Positions 14,994 through 22,343 of a stretch of 64,000 nt of DNA are shown here, piece by piece; position 1 is the stretch's first letter, and the number at the start of each line of letters is the position of its first letter. This DNA comes from Actinocorallia sp. API 0066 (lineage in GTDB: Bacteria; Actinomycetota; Actinomycetes; Streptosporangiales; Streptosporangiaceae), in the NCBI RefSeq assembly GCF_020991275.1, contig NZ_JAJLQY010000010.1, positions 186,001-250,000 on the forward strand, in the 5' to 3' direction. The notes below the pieces were generated by a model. The model searched no databases. It was not told where the DNA came from and saw only the letters and a list, made by a program, of their open reading frames with translations. The position numbers were made by a program, and so were the translations under genes.

Positions 14994-16187
14994 TCAACCG
15001 GGGCGGACGGCGCCGATGAAGCCGTTCCGCCAGATGGACGAGATCCGCACCTTCGCACCCGTGTAGGGCGCCTCGACCATCCGCCCGTCACCGACGAAGA
15101 TCCCGACATGATGAATCGTGTCGGGATCTTTGGTGTTCTTGGCGAAGAACACCAGGTCGCCCGGCCGGAGCATCGTCGTCGGCACCCGCGGGCCCGCCAC
15201 CCACTGCGACCCCGTCCAGTGGTCGAGGCCGATGCCGACCTTCCCCCACGCGTACAGCGCGAGGCCGGAGCAGTCGAAGCCCTTGATCTTCGACCCGTGC
15301 TGGATCCCGTAGGACGGCCCCTTCTGCGTCCCGCCTCCCCATGAATAGGGAGTGCCGATCCACTTGAGCGCCTCCTTGACGACCGTCTTGCCGCGGCCGC
15401 TTACGCGCGGCGAGAGGTCGTCCTCGAAGTTGCGCACGGCCTCGCGGTCGAGGCGTTCCGCACGCTCCTCGCGCAGCGCGGCGATCCTGCGCTCGGCCAG
15501 CCTGTCGGCTCGGCTCTGGGTGCGGGTGAGCTGCGCGGTGAGCCCACGTTTCAGGGCGCCGATCCGGGTGAACGCCTCCTTCTGCGCCCGTACCGCGGCG
15601 ACCGCGTCACGGCGCGTGCGTTCGACCGTCACGGCCGTCTCCTTCTGCCGCGTGTGCGCGCGTCTGGCCTCCGAGCGGAGCAGGCGCGACACCTTGCGCG
15701 CCGCCTTCACCCGCTTGCGCAGCCCCTCGTGGCGCGTCTCGACGACCTGGAGCAGCCGCGCCCTGTCGAGGGCGGCCTGCGCGCCGCCCGTCCCGCCGAC
15801 GGCGAGGCCGAGCCTGCCCGCCGAGGTGTAGGCGCCGACCTCGCGCGCGGAGAGTTCCCGCCGGGCCGCCTCGTAGGCGGCCTCCGCCTTGCGCGCCCGC
15901 GCCCTGGCGTCCCGGACCGCCGCGCGCGCCTTGCGCAGCGCCACGAGCCGCCCGTTGTGCCGCTCCATCGCGAGCTCGGCGTCCCAGCCGAGCGTCGTCA
16001 GCTCGGCGTCGGCGGCGGCCAGCCGCGCCTTGAGCCTGCCGATCTTCTGCGCCTTGGTCAGCGGCGCGGCGCGGCTCGCGACCGCCTGCCCCGCCGGCGA
16101 CGGTTCGGCCGCGAGCGCCGGGGCGACGCCGACGACCAGCGCTCCCGCGACGACAAGGACGAGAGTTGTAGACGACGACCGCGGCAC
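14994..16187 (-). CDS. Secreted NlpC/P60 peptidoglycan hydrolase with coiled coil
   Basis: The 397-residue product begins with a signal peptide (VPRSSSTTLVLVVAGALVVG, cleavage near ALAAEP). A long charged helical region (about 40-270), rich in Arg, Ala and Glu, is probably a coiled coil. A C-terminal NlpC/P60 domain has catalytic Cys306 in GFDCSGL and His360 in HHVGIFVG. It should cut peptide stems of peptidoglycan, like RipA-type enzymes. The GTG start has GGAGG eight bases upstream. No actinobacterial c-di-AMP riboswitch pattern was convincing in the leader. Confidence 0.88.
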   Translation of the reverse strand: MPRSSSTTLVLVVAGALVVGVAPALAAEPSPAGQAVASRAAPLTKAQKIGRLKARLAAADAELTTLGWDAELAMERHNGRLVALRKARAAVRDARARARKAEAAYEAARRELSAREVGAYTSAGRLGLAVGGTGGAQAALDRARLLQVVETRHEGLRKRVKAARKVSRLLRSEARRAHTRQKETAVTVERTRRDAVAAVRAQKEAFTRIGALKRGLTAQLTRTQSRADRLAERRIAALREERAERLDREAVRNFEDDLSPRVSGRGKTVVKEALKWIGTPYSWGGGTQKGPSYGIQHGSKIKGFDCSGLALYAWGKVGIGLDHWTGSQWVAGPRVPTTMLRPGDLVFFAKNTKDPDTIHHVGIFVGDGRMVEAPYTGAKVRISSIWRNGFIGAVRPG

Positions 16188-16400
16188 GGTTCCCACCTCC
16201 ACCCAGGACACGTGACCCGCTGAGGGGCAACGCTGCGAACACGTCCTGTGAACATCTGTCACACGGTGTGCCTCTACCCCGCGCGGCCTTGTCGCCACTC
16301 CGGCTTTACGGTCTTCTTTCCACTTTTCCAAGGAGCCCAGGGCGCTATTTCCGGCTTTCTCCCGACAACTCGGGCAGTCGCTTCCGCCTCGCTGAGATTC

Positions 16401-18092
16401 TTAATCCAGGCCGAAAGGGAAGCCCTTCTCCGGAAACCACAATTCCGGCTTGTCGGGTGTGACCTTCTCGTCCGCCGGGTGTTCCTCGGGCGGGCACAGC
16501 GACGGCGAGGGCTCCGGCGTCCCGGTGCCCGTCGGCGCGGGGACGGGGCCGCTTGTCGGCGTCCCGGCGGGCGCCGTGTGCGCGGGCGACGAGGTCGGCG
16601 GGACGCCCGTCGCCGGGTGCGGTGGAGAAGCCGGCTGCCCCGTCGGCGGGAGGGCGGACGTCCAGGTGACCGTCACCGTGACGCGGCCAAGGCGGATCGT
16701 CCCCTTGCCCGCGCCGTCCTCCGCCGTGCGTAGGACGCGTACCTTGACCGTCGCCTTCTGGTCCTTGGCCAGCCGCCCCGAAGGCTCCGAAAGCCGCATC
16801 GGACCCTTCACCTTGGCCCGCCACACCAGGTCGTCGTCGGCCGAGAGCCGCAGCGTGCCCACCGAGTCCGCGCCCAGGTCGAGCCGCAGCGGCGACACCG
16901 TGAGCGTGCCGGGGCGCTCGGGCGCACCGGCTACGGCGTCCAGCTCCGCGCTCTGCGGTGTGTGCGCGGGCGGCTTGACGTGCGGGGTGGCTGCCGTGTC
17001 GGACGCCGCCGCCCCCTTGCCGCCCACCTGGAGCCGCGCGGGCAGGGCGCCGTCGCGCGGCTCGGGCGGACGCGGCCGGTCGTCGGCAGTGTCACCCGAA
17101 GGAGCGGGCCGTGACCCCGGCGTGCCCCCCGACGCGATCGTGCGCACATCGTGGCGGGGATCGCCCACCAGCCAGCCAACGAACGTCGTCCCCGCGATCA
17201 GCCCTCCCGACAGCACCCCGACCACCAGGATCCTGCGCCACCACCGCGCGCGGTCCTTAGGCTCCTCATCGAGCGGGACCGTCGTGTGGCCGGGAAAGCC
17301 GAGCGGCGTGAAGTCGGTGCTGCGGGTCGCGACGAACAGCCGGTAGCCCACGAGGTCCGGATCGGTGAAGCAGCTCATCACCTTCGCGCGCAGCCCGGCG
17401 GGCGGCGCCGGACTGGGGACCATCGCGAAGATCTTGGCGGGCGACACCGCTTCCGTCGGCCGGTGGACGGCGCACTCCGGGCACGCCTTCACGTGCGCGA
17501 GGAGGTTCGCCCGCACGTTGGCGTCGACTTCGCCCGCCTCCCCCGCCGCGAGGATGTCCGCGCGGGACGCGCAGCCGAAGGGCCCGAGGTGGGAGAGCAG
17601 CTCCACCGTCAGGGTGCTGCGCAGCTCGTTCCTCCCGTCGGCGAGCAGCGCCTGCGTCTGCCGTTCGGGCACGGTGAGCACCAGCGAAGCGTGCCGTACC
17701 GACAGCTTGTGCAGCGTCTCCAGCTCCAGCGCCTCCCGCGCGCGCGGTTCGAGCGCCCGGACGGCCCGCCAGGCGATGAGCCGCTGGTCCGCCTCGCGCC
17801 GGTCGCCCTCCGGCGCCGGGAGGTCGGGAGGCGACGTCGGGAAGGGCCGCCGCGCGCACTCGGACCTGGCGATCGCGTACAGCCAGGGCCGGAACAGCGC
17901 GACGTCGTGCAGCCTGTCGGCGTGCGCCTCCGCGACGATGAAGGTGTCGCGCAGGGCCACCTGCGCCGCCTCGGCGTTCGTCAGCCGGAACCAGCAGTAC
18001 GCGTACAGGGGCTCGGCATACGCGTCGTAGACCGAGGCGAGCGCACCGGGATCACGGGCGCGCAGCGCCTCGACGAGCTGGCGGTCATCCAT
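16401..18092 (-). CDS. Membrane-anchored ECF-type sigma factor with internal zinc anti-sigma-like motif
   Basis: The 563-residue protein starts with an ECF-like region 2 (about 1-80, ALASVYDAYAEPLYAYCWF) and a weaker region 4 (about 103-155). Between them and the membrane lies H200-x3-C204-x2-C207 in LLAHVKACPECAVH, the spacing of zinc anti-sigma (ZAS) domains. One membrane helix follows at about 288-310. The exported part is proline-rich around an Ig/BACON-like beta domain (about 395-475). A sigma factor tethered by its own anti-sigma-like module is inferred; the region 4 helix is divergent, so DNA binding needs testing. Confidence 0.75.
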   Translation of the reverse strand: MDDRQLVEALRARDPGALASVYDAYAEPLYAYCWFRLTNAEAAQVALRDTFIVAEAHADRLHDVALFRPWLYAIARSECARRPFPTSPPDLPAPEGDRREADQRLIAWRAVRALEPRAREALELETLHKLSVRHASLVLTVPERQTQALLADGRNELRSTLTVELLSHLGPFGCASRADILAAGEAGEVDANVRANLLAHVKACPECAVHRPTEAVSPAKIFAMVPSPAPPAGLRAKVMSCFTDPDLVGYRLFVATRSTDFTPLGFPGHTTVPLDEEPKDRARWWRRILVVGVLSGGLIAGTTFVGWLVGDPRHDVRTIASGGTPGSRPAPSGDTADDRPRPPEPRDGALPARLQVGGKGAAASDTAATPHVKPPAHTPQSAELDAVAGAPERPGTLTVSPLRLDLGADSVGTLRLSADDDLVWRAKVKGPMRLSEPSGRLAKDQKATVKVRVLRTAEDGAGKGTIRLGRVTVTVTWTSALPPTGQPASPPHPATGVPPTSSPAHTAPAGTPTSGPVPAPTGTGTPEPSPSLCPPEEHPADEKVTPDKPELWFPEKGFPFGLD

Positions 18093-18249: not shown

Positions 18250-18960
18250 TCAGAATTGCAGCCGCATGGGCGGAAAGAGCCGGTCGGCCGCCGCCGCGAT
18301 CGCGGTCACCTGCGCCGAGGTGAAGATCACCGGATGCGCCTTGACGAACTCGGGGATCTCCCGGCCCCGGTGGAAGGTGACCCCCTCGTGCTCCAGACCC
18401 TCCGGCTCGACCTTCCCCGACTGGACGGCGACCAGAGGAACAACGCCGACCTCCTCGTCGAGCTCCTCCGCGAGGAACCGCGAGACGAGCTCGGCGGCGC
18501 GCGCGGCGGTCTCGCCGATGCCGCCCACCGGCTCCTCCCCCGCCCACAGCCGCCCCTCGTCCGCCCAGAGCCGGACGCCCCGCCGCACCCTGCGCGTGAT
18601 GACGACGTAGACGCCGGTCAGGCCGACCACCAGATGGTCGAGGTTCGTCGCCGACAGGTACGGCACCGTCCGGTCGTGCAGGACCGCATAGCCCCTGCCG
18701 AGCCCGCCCAGGTCGCGGCCCGTCCTGCGCTCGGCGCGCGCCCCGCGCCGCCACTCGGTCTCCGGCCCCGGCACCAGGTAGCTCAGCCCGTAGTGCAGGG
18801 CCGCGACGCCCGCCCCCGAGCAGGCGCCGATCCGCCAGTCGACGAACCCCGCCGTCATCACTCCCGCCGCGGCGCCCAGCGCGCTGCCCACCGCGCAGCG
18901 CTCGACCCGCGAGGAGAGGGTCCGGTAACGCGCCCAAGCCGAAGCTCCGGCCATCCCCAT
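18250..18960 (-). CDS. NERD-domain membrane protein
   Basis: The 236-residue product has two hydrophobic segments near the N-terminus (about 22-40 and 43-60). They are followed by a NERD (nuclease-related) domain: GRDLGGLGRGYAVLHDRTVP, then NLDHLVVGLTGVYVVITRR and VVPLVAVQSGKVE. The NERD fold resembles restriction-type nucleases but activity is unproven for most members. Two ATG starts, six bases apart, are both possible; GGAG is four or ten bases upstream. It is divergent from the MerR gene. Confidence 0.75.
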   Translation of the reverse strand: MGMAGASAWARYRTLSSRVERCAVGSALGAAAGVMTAGFVDWRIGACSGAGVAALHYGLSYLVPGPETEWRRGARAERRTGRDLGGLGRGYAVLHDRTVPYLSATNLDHLVVGLTGVYVVITRRVRRGVRLWADEGRLWAGEEPVGGIGETAARAAELVSRFLAEELDEEVGVVPLVAVQSGKVEPEGLEHEGVTFHRGREIPEFVKAHPVIFTSAQVTAIAAAADRLFPPMRLQF

Positions 18961-19081
18961 CTCACTCCGACCCACCTGCTCACCCCCGGGGGCAAGAGTC
19001 GTGGCAGGTCGGGCCGCATTCAAGGACTTCGGCGCACCCGGCAGGTGTCGTCGCGGCATACCAGGGCAAGCCGGGCGCGGT

Positions 19082-19174: not shown

Positions 19175-19879
19175 ATGAGCGAGGGGTGGACGATCGCCGA
19201 GCTGGCCGCGCGCGCCGCGGCGGCCCTGGCCGACCTCGACGTCAACGGGCGCGTCCAGGACGTGCCGAACGAGCGGCTCATCCGCTGGTACACCACGCTC
19301 GGCCTGCTCGACCCGCCGGTCCGGCACGGCAGGCACGCGCGCTACACGCCCCGGCACCTGCTCCAGCTCGTCGCGGTCAAGCGCCGCCAGGCCACGGGGC
19401 TGAGCCTCGCCGAGATCCAGGCCGAGCTCGTCAGCGCGCCCGACGGCAGGCTCACCGCCATCACCGGCCCGCTCCCCGAAGTCGACATCGCCTGGAGCGC
19501 CCCCCGGCCCTCGCCCCGCCGCTTCTGGGCCGCCGAACCCCCGGCGCCCGACGAGCGCCCCGAGCCTGAGCGGTCCGAAGCACGGTCGACGCGCGCGGGG
19601 TCGGCGCCGAGCCCGGAACCCCCACCAGCCGCGGTTTCCGCGCGAGGTCCACTGCCAGCCGTCGCCGACGCGGCGGCAGGCACGGAGTCCGCGCCGGTGG
19701 ACGTGGTGTTCGCCGTGCAGGGGGTGCGGCTCGCGCCCGGGGTGACGCTGCTGCTCGAAGGCGGGCCGGTCGGCGGTGAGGACGCTGCGGCGCTGCTGCG
19801 CGCGGCCTCACCGCTGCTCGCCGAACTCGCCCACCGGGGCCTGCTGCCAGGAGAGGGGGAACCCGCCGCGCGCACCTGA
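19175..19879 (+). CDS. MerR-family transcriptional regulator
   Basis: The 234-residue product has an N-terminal MerR winged helix: IAELAARAAAAL, then RLIRWYTTLGLLDPP and the wing RHGRHARYTPRHLLQLVAVK, then LSLAEIQAEL. A proline/alanine-rich linker (about 110-165) leads to a small C-terminal domain (VDVVFAVQGVRLAPGVTLLLEGGP) that may sense a ligand. The ATG eight bases after GGGAGG is preferred over an earlier GTG that overlaps that site. A palindrome-covered promoter precedes it and the VIT/VWA gene follows, so that gene is the probable target. Confidence 0.88.
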   Translation: MSEGWTIAELAARAAAALADLDVNGRVQDVPNERLIRWYTTLGLLDPPVRHGRHARYTPRHLLQLVAVKRRQATGLSLAEIQAELVSAPDGRLTAITGPLPEVDIAWSAPRPSPRRFWAAEPPAPDERPEPERSEARSTRAGSAPSPEPPPAAVSARGPLPAVADAAAGTESAPVDVVFAVQGVRLAPGVTLLLEGGPVGGEDAAALLRAASPLLAELAHRGLLPGEGEPAART

Positions 19880-19925
19880 ACCCAGCACGACGTCCGAGCA
19901 AGCGCAAGCCAGTCTGGAGGCAGCA

Positions 19926-22343
19926 GTGACCACGCAGATCGAAGAGCCGGGCGCGTGCCCGCCCCCCGCCGGGGCGGTCACCGGCGTCCTCAGCACCTCC
20001 GAGGGGATCCTGCCCCTCGACGCCGTGCGGATCCACGCCGACATCGCCGGGCTCGCCGCCGGGGTCGAGGTCGTGCAGGAGTTCCGCAACGCCTTCGAGA
20101 TCCCCCTCGAAGCCACCTACATCTTCCCGCTGCCCGACCGCGCCGCGGTGACGGCCCTCGTCATGGAGGCGGCGGGCCGTACCCTCCGGGCCGAACTGCG
20201 CGAACGCGGCGAGGCGCGCGCCGCGTACGACACCGCGATAGCCGCCGGGCAGCGCGCGTCCATCGCCGAGGAGGACCGGCCCGACGTCTTCTCCATGCGC
20301 GTCGGCAACATCCCGCCGGGCGAGCGCGTCACCGTCCGGCTCACGCTGAGCCAGCCGCTCCCCTGCGAGGACGGCACCGCCGTTTTCCGGTTCCCGCTCG
20401 TCGTCGCGCCCCGCTACGTCCCCGGCACCCCGCTGGGCGGGCCGGACGCGGGCCTGGGCGTCACGCCCGACACCACCGACGTGCCCGACGCCTCCCGCAT
20501 CAGCCCGCCGGTCCTGCTGCCCGGCTACCCCCACCCCGTCACGCTCGCGCTCACCGCGCGGATCGACCCGGCCGGGCTCCCCCTCGGCCCCGTCACCTGC
20601 ACCCACCCCGTCACCCCGGACGAGGCGGGCGTGCTCACCGTCGCGCACGGCGCACGACTCGACAGGGACTTCATCCTGCGCCTGCCCTACGGCCCGAGGG
20701 GCGCTCCCGACGAAGTCGGGCCCGCGAAGCGCCCCACGGGCCCAAACGAACACAGCCCGGCGGGCGCTCCCGACGAAGTCGGGGCCGAGTCGCTGGTTCT
20801 CACGCCCGACGCCGAAGGCGGGGAGGGCACCTTCACCCTCACGCTGCTGCCAGCGGCCGAGGCCGCGCCACGGCCCAAGGACGTCGTCCTCGTGCTGGAC
20901 AGGTCGGGCAGCATGCACGGCTGGAAGATGGTCGCCGCGCGCCGGGCCGCCGCCCGCATCATCGACAGCCTGCACTCGCGCGACAGGTTCGCGGTCCTCG
21001 CCTTCGACCACGAGGTCCAGACCCCCGAGGGGCTGCCCGACGGCCTCGCCGACGCCACCGACAGGCACCGCTTCCGCGCCGTCGAGCACCTGGCCAAGAC
21101 CGAGGCGCGCGGCGCCACCGAGATGCTCGACCCGCTGCGCCGCGCCACCGCCCTGCTCGCCGACCCCGCGCGCGACAGGGTCCTGGTCCTCGTCACCGAC
21201 GGCCAGGTCGGCAACGAGGACCAGATCCTCGCGGCGCTCCCCGCGCCCCGGCCCGACGGCATCAGGATCCACACGGTGGGCGTCGACAGGGCGGTGAACG
21301 CGGGCTTCCTCGGCAGGCTCGCCGCCTACGGGCAGGGCCGCTGCGAACTCGTCGAGTCGGAGGACAGGCTCGACGCCGCGATGGAGCACATCCACCACCG
21401 GATCGCCGCGCCCGTGCGCACCGGCATCACCCTCGACCCCGGCCCCGGCCTGGAACTGCTCGGCGAGACGGTCTCCCCCGCGCGGCCGCCGTCGCTGTTC
21501 CCCGGGGTGCCGCTCGTCATCTCCGGGCGCTACCGGGGCGCGGGCCCGCTGACGGTCCGCGCGGACGAGGGGTCCTGGGCGCGGACGCTGACGCCCGTGG
21601 TCGTCCCCGAGTCACCGGCTGCCGTGTTGTGGGCGCGCGCCCACCTGCGCGATCTGGAGGACTCCTACGCGGCGAGCCCGTCCGGCACGCTGGAGGAGCG
21701 GATCGTCGCGACGTCGCTGCGGCACGGCGTGCTGTGCCGGTTCACCGCGTACATCGCGGTGGACACCCGGGTGGTGACGGACGGCGCGGCGCCGCACCCC
21801 GTCGTCCAGCCGGTCGAACTGCCGGACGGCTGGGCGCAGCCGCTGTCCGTCGCCGCCCCCGCGTTCGGCGCGGCGCCCCGGATGGCCGCCGCCTCGATGC
21901 CGGTGCCCGCCCCGGCGCCGGCGGCCGCGCCTCCCGGCTACGCGGGCGCCCCCGCGGGGCCGCCCTCGCCCGTCCTCGACGCACCCGAGCGCGCCGCGGA
22001 GCCGCCCCCGTACGGCACCGGCGGCCCCCAGCACACCGCAGGGCCGCCCGCGCCGCGGCCCGCCCGCGCCCGCCGTGCCGCCGCGCCGCGGCCCGCGAGC
22101 CCCGATCTCACGCCGCTGCTGGCGGTGGAGCTCGACCGGCTCAGGGCGCTCGCCGACGCCCCCGAGCCCGCGCGCCGCCGCCACCTGACAGATCTCATCA
22201 CCCGTCTGGAGGCCCTCCAGATCCCCGACCTCACCCCGCTCCTCACCACCCTCAAGACCGCCCCCGACCCCCTGTCCCTCTGGTCCGAGCTCGTCGACCG
22301 CCTCACCGCCCTCACCAAGCCGCGCCCCTTCTGGAAGCGCTGA
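19926..22343 (+). CDS. VIT and von Willebrand factor A domain protein
   Basis: The 805-residue product has an N-terminal VIT domain (about 15-150, with VVQEFRNAFEIPLEATYIFPLPD and PDVFSMRVGNIPPGERV). A VWA domain follows, whose MIDAS begins DRSGSM at 325-330. A proline/alanine-rich linker (about 655-725) and a helical C-terminus end it. There is no signal peptide, so it is probably cytoplasmic; the role of bacterial VIT-VWA proteins is poorly known, with metal-dependent protein binding expected. The GTG start follows GGAGG by six bases. An in-frame palindromic insertion separates VIT from VWA. It is likely controlled by the preceding MerR protein. Confidence 0.88.
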   Translation: MTTQIEEPGACPPPAGAVTGVLSTSEGILPLDAVRIHADIAGLAAGVEVVQEFRNAFEIPLEATYIFPLPDRAAVTALVMEAAGRTLRAELRERGEARAAYDTAIAAGQRASIAEEDRPDVFSMRVGNIPPGERVTVRLTLSQPLPCEDGTAVFRFPLVVAPRYVPGTPLGGPDAGLGVTPDTTDVPDASRISPPVLLPGYPHPVTLALTARIDPAGLPLGPVTCTHPVTPDEAGVLTVAHGARLDRDFILRLPYGPRGAPDEVGPAKRPTGPNEHSPAGAPDEVGAESLVLTPDAEGGEGTFTLTLLPAAEAAPRPKDVVLVLDRSGSMHGWKMVAARRAAARIIDSLHSRDRFAVLAFDHEVQTPEGLPDGLADATDRHRFRAVEHLAKTEARGATEMLDPLRRATALLADPARDRVLVLVTDGQVGNEDQILAALPAPRPDGIRIHTVGVDRAVNAGFLGRLAAYGQGRCELVESEDRLDAAMEHIHHRIAAPVRTGITLDPGPGLELLGETVSPARPPSLFPGVPLVISGRYRGAGPLTVRADEGSWARTLTPVVVPESPAAVLWARAHLRDLEDSYAASPSGTLEERIVATSLRHGVLCRFTAYIAVDTRVVTDGAAPHPVVQPVELPDGWAQPLSVAAPAFGAAPRMAAASMPVPAPAPAAAPPGYAGAPAGPPSPVLDAPERAAEPPPYGTGGPQHTAGPPAPRPARARRAAAPRPASPDLTPLLAVELDRLRALADAPEPARRRHLTDLITRLEALQIPDLTPLLTTLKTAPDPLSLWSELVDRLTALTKPRPFWKR
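20698..20784 (+). repeat. In-frame palindromic repeat element inside the VIT/VWA gene
   Basis: A 22-base sequence (GGGCGCTCCCGACGAAGTCG plus GG) occurs twice, 63 bases apart. Each contains CCCGAC-GAA-GTCGGG, a hairpin. The first copy is also enclosed by GGGGCGCT and AGCGCCCC. The insert encodes two GAPDEVG peptides and keeps the reading frame between the two domains. Confidence 0.7.

Follow-up and report, generated by a model that had tools for sequence, protein, structure and literature searches.

A fused membrane ECF sigma factor of the Streptosporangiaceae that has probably lost its sigma activity and kept a sigma2/helix-4 pair

Does a membrane protein that carries both an ECF sigma factor and its own anti-sigma domain still switch genes on? 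The question is raised by an open reading frame at positions 16401-18092 (minus strand, as are all features of the gene) of the window, the 64,000-nucleotide stretch of Actinocorallia sp. API 0066 DNA analyzed here. Its product has 563 amino acids, with an ATG start common to the orthologs, and ECF sigma2- and sigma4-like domains, a zinc anti-sigma domain and a membrane helix are found in this one polypeptide, followed by an external domain. That a membrane sigma factor may be inhibited by a domain of its own polypeptide is a published concept (PMC8999054, PMC5826349). The actinobacterial groups ECF48, ECF52 and ECF53 combine a sigma factor with a zinc-finger anti-sigma domain and membrane helices, and activation by proteolysis is expected for them (PMC8999054). 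SCO4117 of Streptomyces coelicolor (ECF52) has been studied genetically, and an in vivo effect of its truncated sigma part was observed (PMC5826349). The example for which such activation has been characterized experimentally is Pseudomonas putida IutY (ECF243), in which a sigma factor is joined to an anti-sigma domain in the membrane and is activated by Prc/RseP cleavage (PMC8999054); IutY differs from the window protein in serving cell-surface signaling for an iron carrier and in that the activity of its sigma domain has been shown experimentally.

The sigma2-like domain (residues 1-82; 17847-18092) is matched by Pfam Sigma70_r2 over residues 22-81 (E 0.019), by NCBIfam ECF models (down to E 2.8e-8) and by a PDB profile of SigW (E 6.6e-5). 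The sigma4-like domain (residues 107-160; 17613-17774) gives a weaker Pfam match (residues 107-156, E 0.16) and is the fastest-evolving folded part. The first-pass annotation had placed remnants of sigma regions 2 and 4 near the N-terminus, and this holds, the sigma2 part being real but weak and the sigma4 part weaker still. The zinc module (residues 171-210; 17463-17582; zf-HC2 match at E 0.4) is followed by anti-sigma helix 4 and a juxtamembrane signature, LRxxV...DPxLxxYR...GFP (residues 217-267; 17292-17444), delimited by conservation, with the helix-4 role taken from PMC7406223. Hydropathy places the only membrane helix of the protein at about residues 288-310 (17163-17231). All Pfam scores are below threshold; the domains are nevertheless real, because these parts are conserved in the relatives. 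The union of an ECF-like part, a ZAS-type zinc motif and a membrane helix, as first noticed in the letters alone, is borne out, with a complete class I module and in a conserved arrangement.

Relatives at E 1e-20 or better occur in 42 of 61 genomes of the same taxonomic family, and a related-locus search of genome contigs returned one relative. We aligned 36 long orthologs (group A), five short orthologs (group S), 27 paralogs mostly in the same family (group D) and 10 relatives from other families of the class (group O), together with two paralog sets, B and C, which are present in the window genome and in both other genomes of the genus. The tree was built from the sigma2 and juxtamembrane columns after removal of the key residues. 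Groups A and S came together (SH-aLRT 87) and the short orthologs formed one clade (SH-aLRT 99), the split between A and S being poorly supported in this tree. Among 197 genomes of the class, both groups are confined to the window's own family at E 1e-12.

The zinc motif reads C174-x25-H200-x3-C204-x2-C207 (C174, 17571-17573; H200, 17493-17495; C204, 17481-17483; C207, 17472-17474), that is, the class I ZAS pattern Hx3Cx2C with an upstream fourth ligand, in a spacing that matches that of RsrA. All four ligands are present in each of the 35 group-A proteins that have the module, and the motif is therefore not a chance occurrence. The earlier reading of an H-x3-C-x2-C motif was correct as to its reality and too small in extent, with three ligands named instead of four; the conservation of the H/C/C positions, on which that reading had been staked, is seen in all 35. 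Class I ZAS proteins such as ChrR and RsiW share this motif, the fourth helix after it and often a membrane helix (PMC7406223); they are, however, separate proteins, whereas the module in the window is fused behind a sigma-like domain. No anti-sigma domain was found in the four neighboring proteins scanned, in agreement with the first remark that no separate anti-sigma gene lies beside this one. Coevolution has revealed that an anti-sigma factor meets its sigma factor at two interfaces: its helix 1 contacts sigma4, and its helix 4 covers the face with which sigma2 binds the polymerase (PMC7406223). Conservation over helix 4 and the juxtamembrane segment is 0.575 in group A versus 0.366 in group D, and that of the zinc module is slightly lower in group A (0.459 versus 0.506); the group-A conservation figures in this report are based on 32 rows, six sequences having been added and one row moved to group S afterwards. 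An AlphaFold2 model of residues 1-275 from two sequences had a pLDDT of 41.8, too low for interpretation.

The state of the sigma2 domain bears directly on the question. The protein is the lowest of the 35 Sigma70_r2 matches in its own genome and the sole one under the Pfam cut-off (19.1 versus 24 bits). Against a profile of the ECF sigma2 domains of that genome, the median bit score falls from 64 in group O to 45 in D, 36 in A and 28 in S. At the site of the region 2.2 polymerase-contact motif, AQVALRDTF (residues 43-51; 17940-17966), V45 stands in the usual acidic position and R48 in that of the usual Gln or His. None of the 41 proteins of groups A and S has an acidic residue at position 45, and all 41 have R48 and D49; the same position is acidic in 30/30 sigma factors of the window genome, 10/10 of group O and 21/27 of group D. 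Since the 41 sequences have a common ancestor, the loss represents one inherited event and not 41, and a Fisher test on this residue was set aside because the sequences are not independent. These particular region 2.2 residues are known to be important in sigma70. A literature search for a paper on sigma70 core-binding mutants found none. Regions 2.1 and 2.2 of sigma bind the beta-prime clamp helices (PMC7406223).

The loss of the Asp does not in itself prove that the polymerase is no longer bound. L166, a protein of the ECF52 type recognized by its NPCBM domain and layout rather than by name, has Ala at the Gln position and has lost the region 2.4 Asn; its acidic region 2.2 residue, an Asp, is kept. 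The loss of the region 2.4 Asn was considered as a criterion and dropped, as L166 is likewise without it; by inspection, so are several real sigma factors of the window genome. The sigma2 domain of the window protein is under purifying selection (dN 0.10 and dS 0.47 against G001), with pairwise dN/dS in three comparisons of 0.19-0.29 for sigma2 and 0.37-0.79 for sigma4. An altered polymerase contact is possible, given that sigma2 is strongly conserved and R48 invariant.

The former recognition helix of sigma4 (residues 139-156; 17625-17678) is uncharged and variable. Orthologs of a real ECF sigma factor (L015), mostly in the same genomes, served as the control. The mean net charge of the recognition-helix region is -0.5 in group A versus +5 to +6 in the control, and the mean identity is 29% versus 98%. 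Conservation of sigma2 and sigma4 is 0.95 and 0.94 in the control and 0.60 and 0.43 in group A. A conserved, positively charged recognition helix is thus absent from group A, and in the window lineage this helix no longer has the look of a DNA-binding helix. The first-pass annotation had proposed that its idea would fail if regions 2 and 4 lacked the promoter-binding residues throughout the homologs, and the polymerase- and promoter-contact features are indeed missing across the whole ortholog group.

Natural deletions indicate which parts the lineage has retained. Short forms of 177-217 amino acids in six genomes (L103 and L167-L171; the tree includes five of them) consist of sigma2, the helix 4/juxtamembrane segment and the membrane helix only, and they share the long-form locus next to ppa-dacB. 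The short clade is without sigma4 and the zinc helices together, having kept sigma2, anti-sigma helix 4 and the membrane helix. This fits the two-interface data (PMC7406223), in that both partners of the helix 1/sigma4 interface are gone and both partners of the helix 4/sigma2 interface remain. One ortholog (L104) has lost the zinc module and kept sigma4, which does not fit a strict pairing of sigma4 with the zinc module. Two others (L005 and L089) lack the membrane and external parts. The ortholog in G002, of the same genus, has 296 amino acids; it ends after the juxtamembrane segment, has no membrane helix and is closely followed by the NlpC/P60 gene. A frameshift was rejected as the reason for this truncation, since none of the forward frames up to that gene encodes a membrane helix.

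Outside the membrane lies the Ig/BACON-like domain (residues 394-480; 16653-16913), which no Pfam model matches in the window protein. In the relatives it matches BACON_2 (up to E 2e-8), and a profile of it detects 36 members of the wider family. Its AlphaFold2 model, from two sequences, is all-beta at a moderate pLDDT of 65.6, and the best structure matches of that model are to Ig-like domains of the PapD/MSP/ASH type. The membrane helix and exported Ig/BACON-like domain seen at first reading are both supported by these data. The domain is present in 7/36 proteins of group A, 21/27 of D, all of B and C, and 2/10 of O, a distribution by which it is probably ancestral and often lost. The Pro/Ser/Thr-rich tail (residues 481-563; 16404-16652) is poorly conserved. 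In two group-A proteins (L062 and L088) His-rich external tails replace the Ig-like domain, that of L062 with a long HDHEHEHDHDH run, which suggests metal binding outside the cell. A literature search for a paper on a sigma-BACON protein found none.

The gene lies upstream of an NlpC/P60 hydrolase gene in the same direction (14994-16196, minus strand, start approximate; identified by domain scan and orthologous loci), and this order recurs at 14 of 18 long-form loci besides the window. The locus NlpC/P60-ppa-dacB is conserved, with ppa, dacB and a third conserved gene close to the long-form loci. None of the six short-form loci has a detectable NlpC/P60 gene; as the short forms are one clade, this absence amounts to a single event and is only suggestive. 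The upstream co-directional neighbor (18250-19059) codes for a NERD-domain protein that recurs at several orthologous loci, and a protein with VIT and VWA domains (19836-22343) is conserved near the locus in closer relatives. A scan for promoters and terminators found nothing.

Among the paralogs of the genus, group B (L002, L006 and L007) is without the zinc module, has Arg at the acidic position of region 2.2 and His at the Gln position, and has a net charge of about -4 in the recognition-helix region; a fusion of the same type seems to have decayed independently in this group. Group C (L003, L008 and L009) has the acidic residue in two of three members, keeps the C/H/C/C residues and has a positive recognition-helix region. 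In the genomes of the genus, this group may be the version that has retained more function.

The reading that we favor, with a probability of roughly 0.6, is that of a fused membrane sigma factor, now retired, of which the sigma2/helix-4 pair persists as an interaction or scaffold module anchored in the membrane. Homology, the zinc ligands, the loss of contact residues, the deletion series and the conserved neighborhood are all read directly from the sequences. The ancestor would have been a membrane-tethered ECF sigma factor with its own class I zinc anti-sigma domain, in the ECF48/52/53 layout. In the Streptosporangiaceae-type lineage the sigma activity was most likely lost, because the acidic contact is gone, an invariant Arg stands at the Gln/His position and the recognition helix has changed; the fusion in the window lineage probably no longer switches genes on. 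Selection would still hold the sigma2-like domain, helix 4 and the juxtamembrane signature, anchored by the one membrane helix. From the short-clade deletions and the conservation of helix 4, we infer that the sigma2/helix-4 complex is the selected unit. Sigma2 would pack on helix 4 within the molecule, with polymerase binding presumably abolished, as a stable complex at the cell envelope and not as a releasable transcription factor. The module adjoins the gene of an NlpC/P60 wall hydrolase, and a link to wall hydrolysis is conceivable from this position.

A second explanation, which we consider unlikely, is that of a membrane-anchored sigma mimic: a one-component sigma factor in origin, it would have lost its binding to polymerase and promoters and would now act by switching between protein partners. 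The pseudo-sigma2, once uncapped from its cis helix 4, would titrate an anti-sigma factor away from a different ECF and thereby release the latter. An analogous non-sigma use of an ECF-like domain is found in PhyR/NepR: PhyR of the Alphaproteobacteria has an ECF-like sigma2/sigma4 fold and does not act as a sigma factor (PMC4598750). Selection on sigma2 while the polymerase and promoter contacts were lost would also be in keeping with a mimic. However, PhyR is switched by a phosphorylated receiver domain, whereas the pseudo-sigma of the window protein is joined to an anti-sigma module and a membrane helix; the domain scan of the 563-residue protein found no receiver domain, and it has no switch domain of another kind. 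With sigma4 lost throughout a clade, one of the two surfaces for anti-sigma contact is gone there. A scaffold and a mimic acting in trans would look alike in sequence. A literature search on pseudo-sigma proteins returned none that was relevant by title and the start of the abstract.

The first-pass annotation proposed a working one-component sigma factor, which its own zinc anti-sigma domain would keep at the membrane until an external signal led to its proteolytic release. This proposal fares worse and appears improbable. It can draw on the full set of zinc ligands, the membrane helix and the external domain, on the purifying selection on sigma2, and on a layout as in SCO4117, whose truncated sigma part is effective in vivo (PMC5826349). 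The likeness to ECF48/52/53, namely an ECF sigma factor, a zinc-finger anti-sigma domain and one or more membrane helices in one actinobacterial polypeptide, is evident (PMC5826349, PMC8999054). ECF52 has in addition a Pro-rich stretch and an external domain of its own, and proteolytic release has been proposed for these fused proteins (PMC5826349, PMC8999054). In contrast to ECF52, the window group is without the acidic region 2.2 residue in 41/41 proteins, has a recognition helix that is uncharged and variable, and exposes outside the cell either an Ig/BACON-like domain or no domain. The window protein has neither the external carbohydrate-binding module (NPCBM) nor the closest kinship to SCO4117 that mark ECF52 proper; L166, placed there by layout, has its best matches in group O, and its matches do not include the window protein. 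The external domain, moreover, is absent from 29 of the 36 long orthologs. A working one-component sigma is hard to square with orthologs that lack sigma4 and the zinc module, only the zinc module, or the membrane and external parts. The repeated loss of the zinc module, sigma4, membrane helix and external domain, together with the similar decay of paralog B, could also suggest a gene that is slowly turning into a functionless pseudogene. This is very improbable in view of the intact frames in 41 orthologs, the conserved locus, and the invariant residues of the sigma2 and juxtamembrane part, where dN is well below dS.

Catalogues list fused ECF/anti-sigma proteins as sigma factors that bear regulatory extensions. 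Our analysis suggests that the window group, with such a layout, has lost the sigma chemistry and kept the sigma2/helix-4 pair, so that the layout alone would mis-annotate it. Were the mimic reading true, the protein would be a membrane-bound counterpart of PhyR; to our knowledge none has been described before. The short clade resembles a natural minimal sigma2/helix-4 unit, in which the two-interface model of anti-sigma factors would be directly testable.
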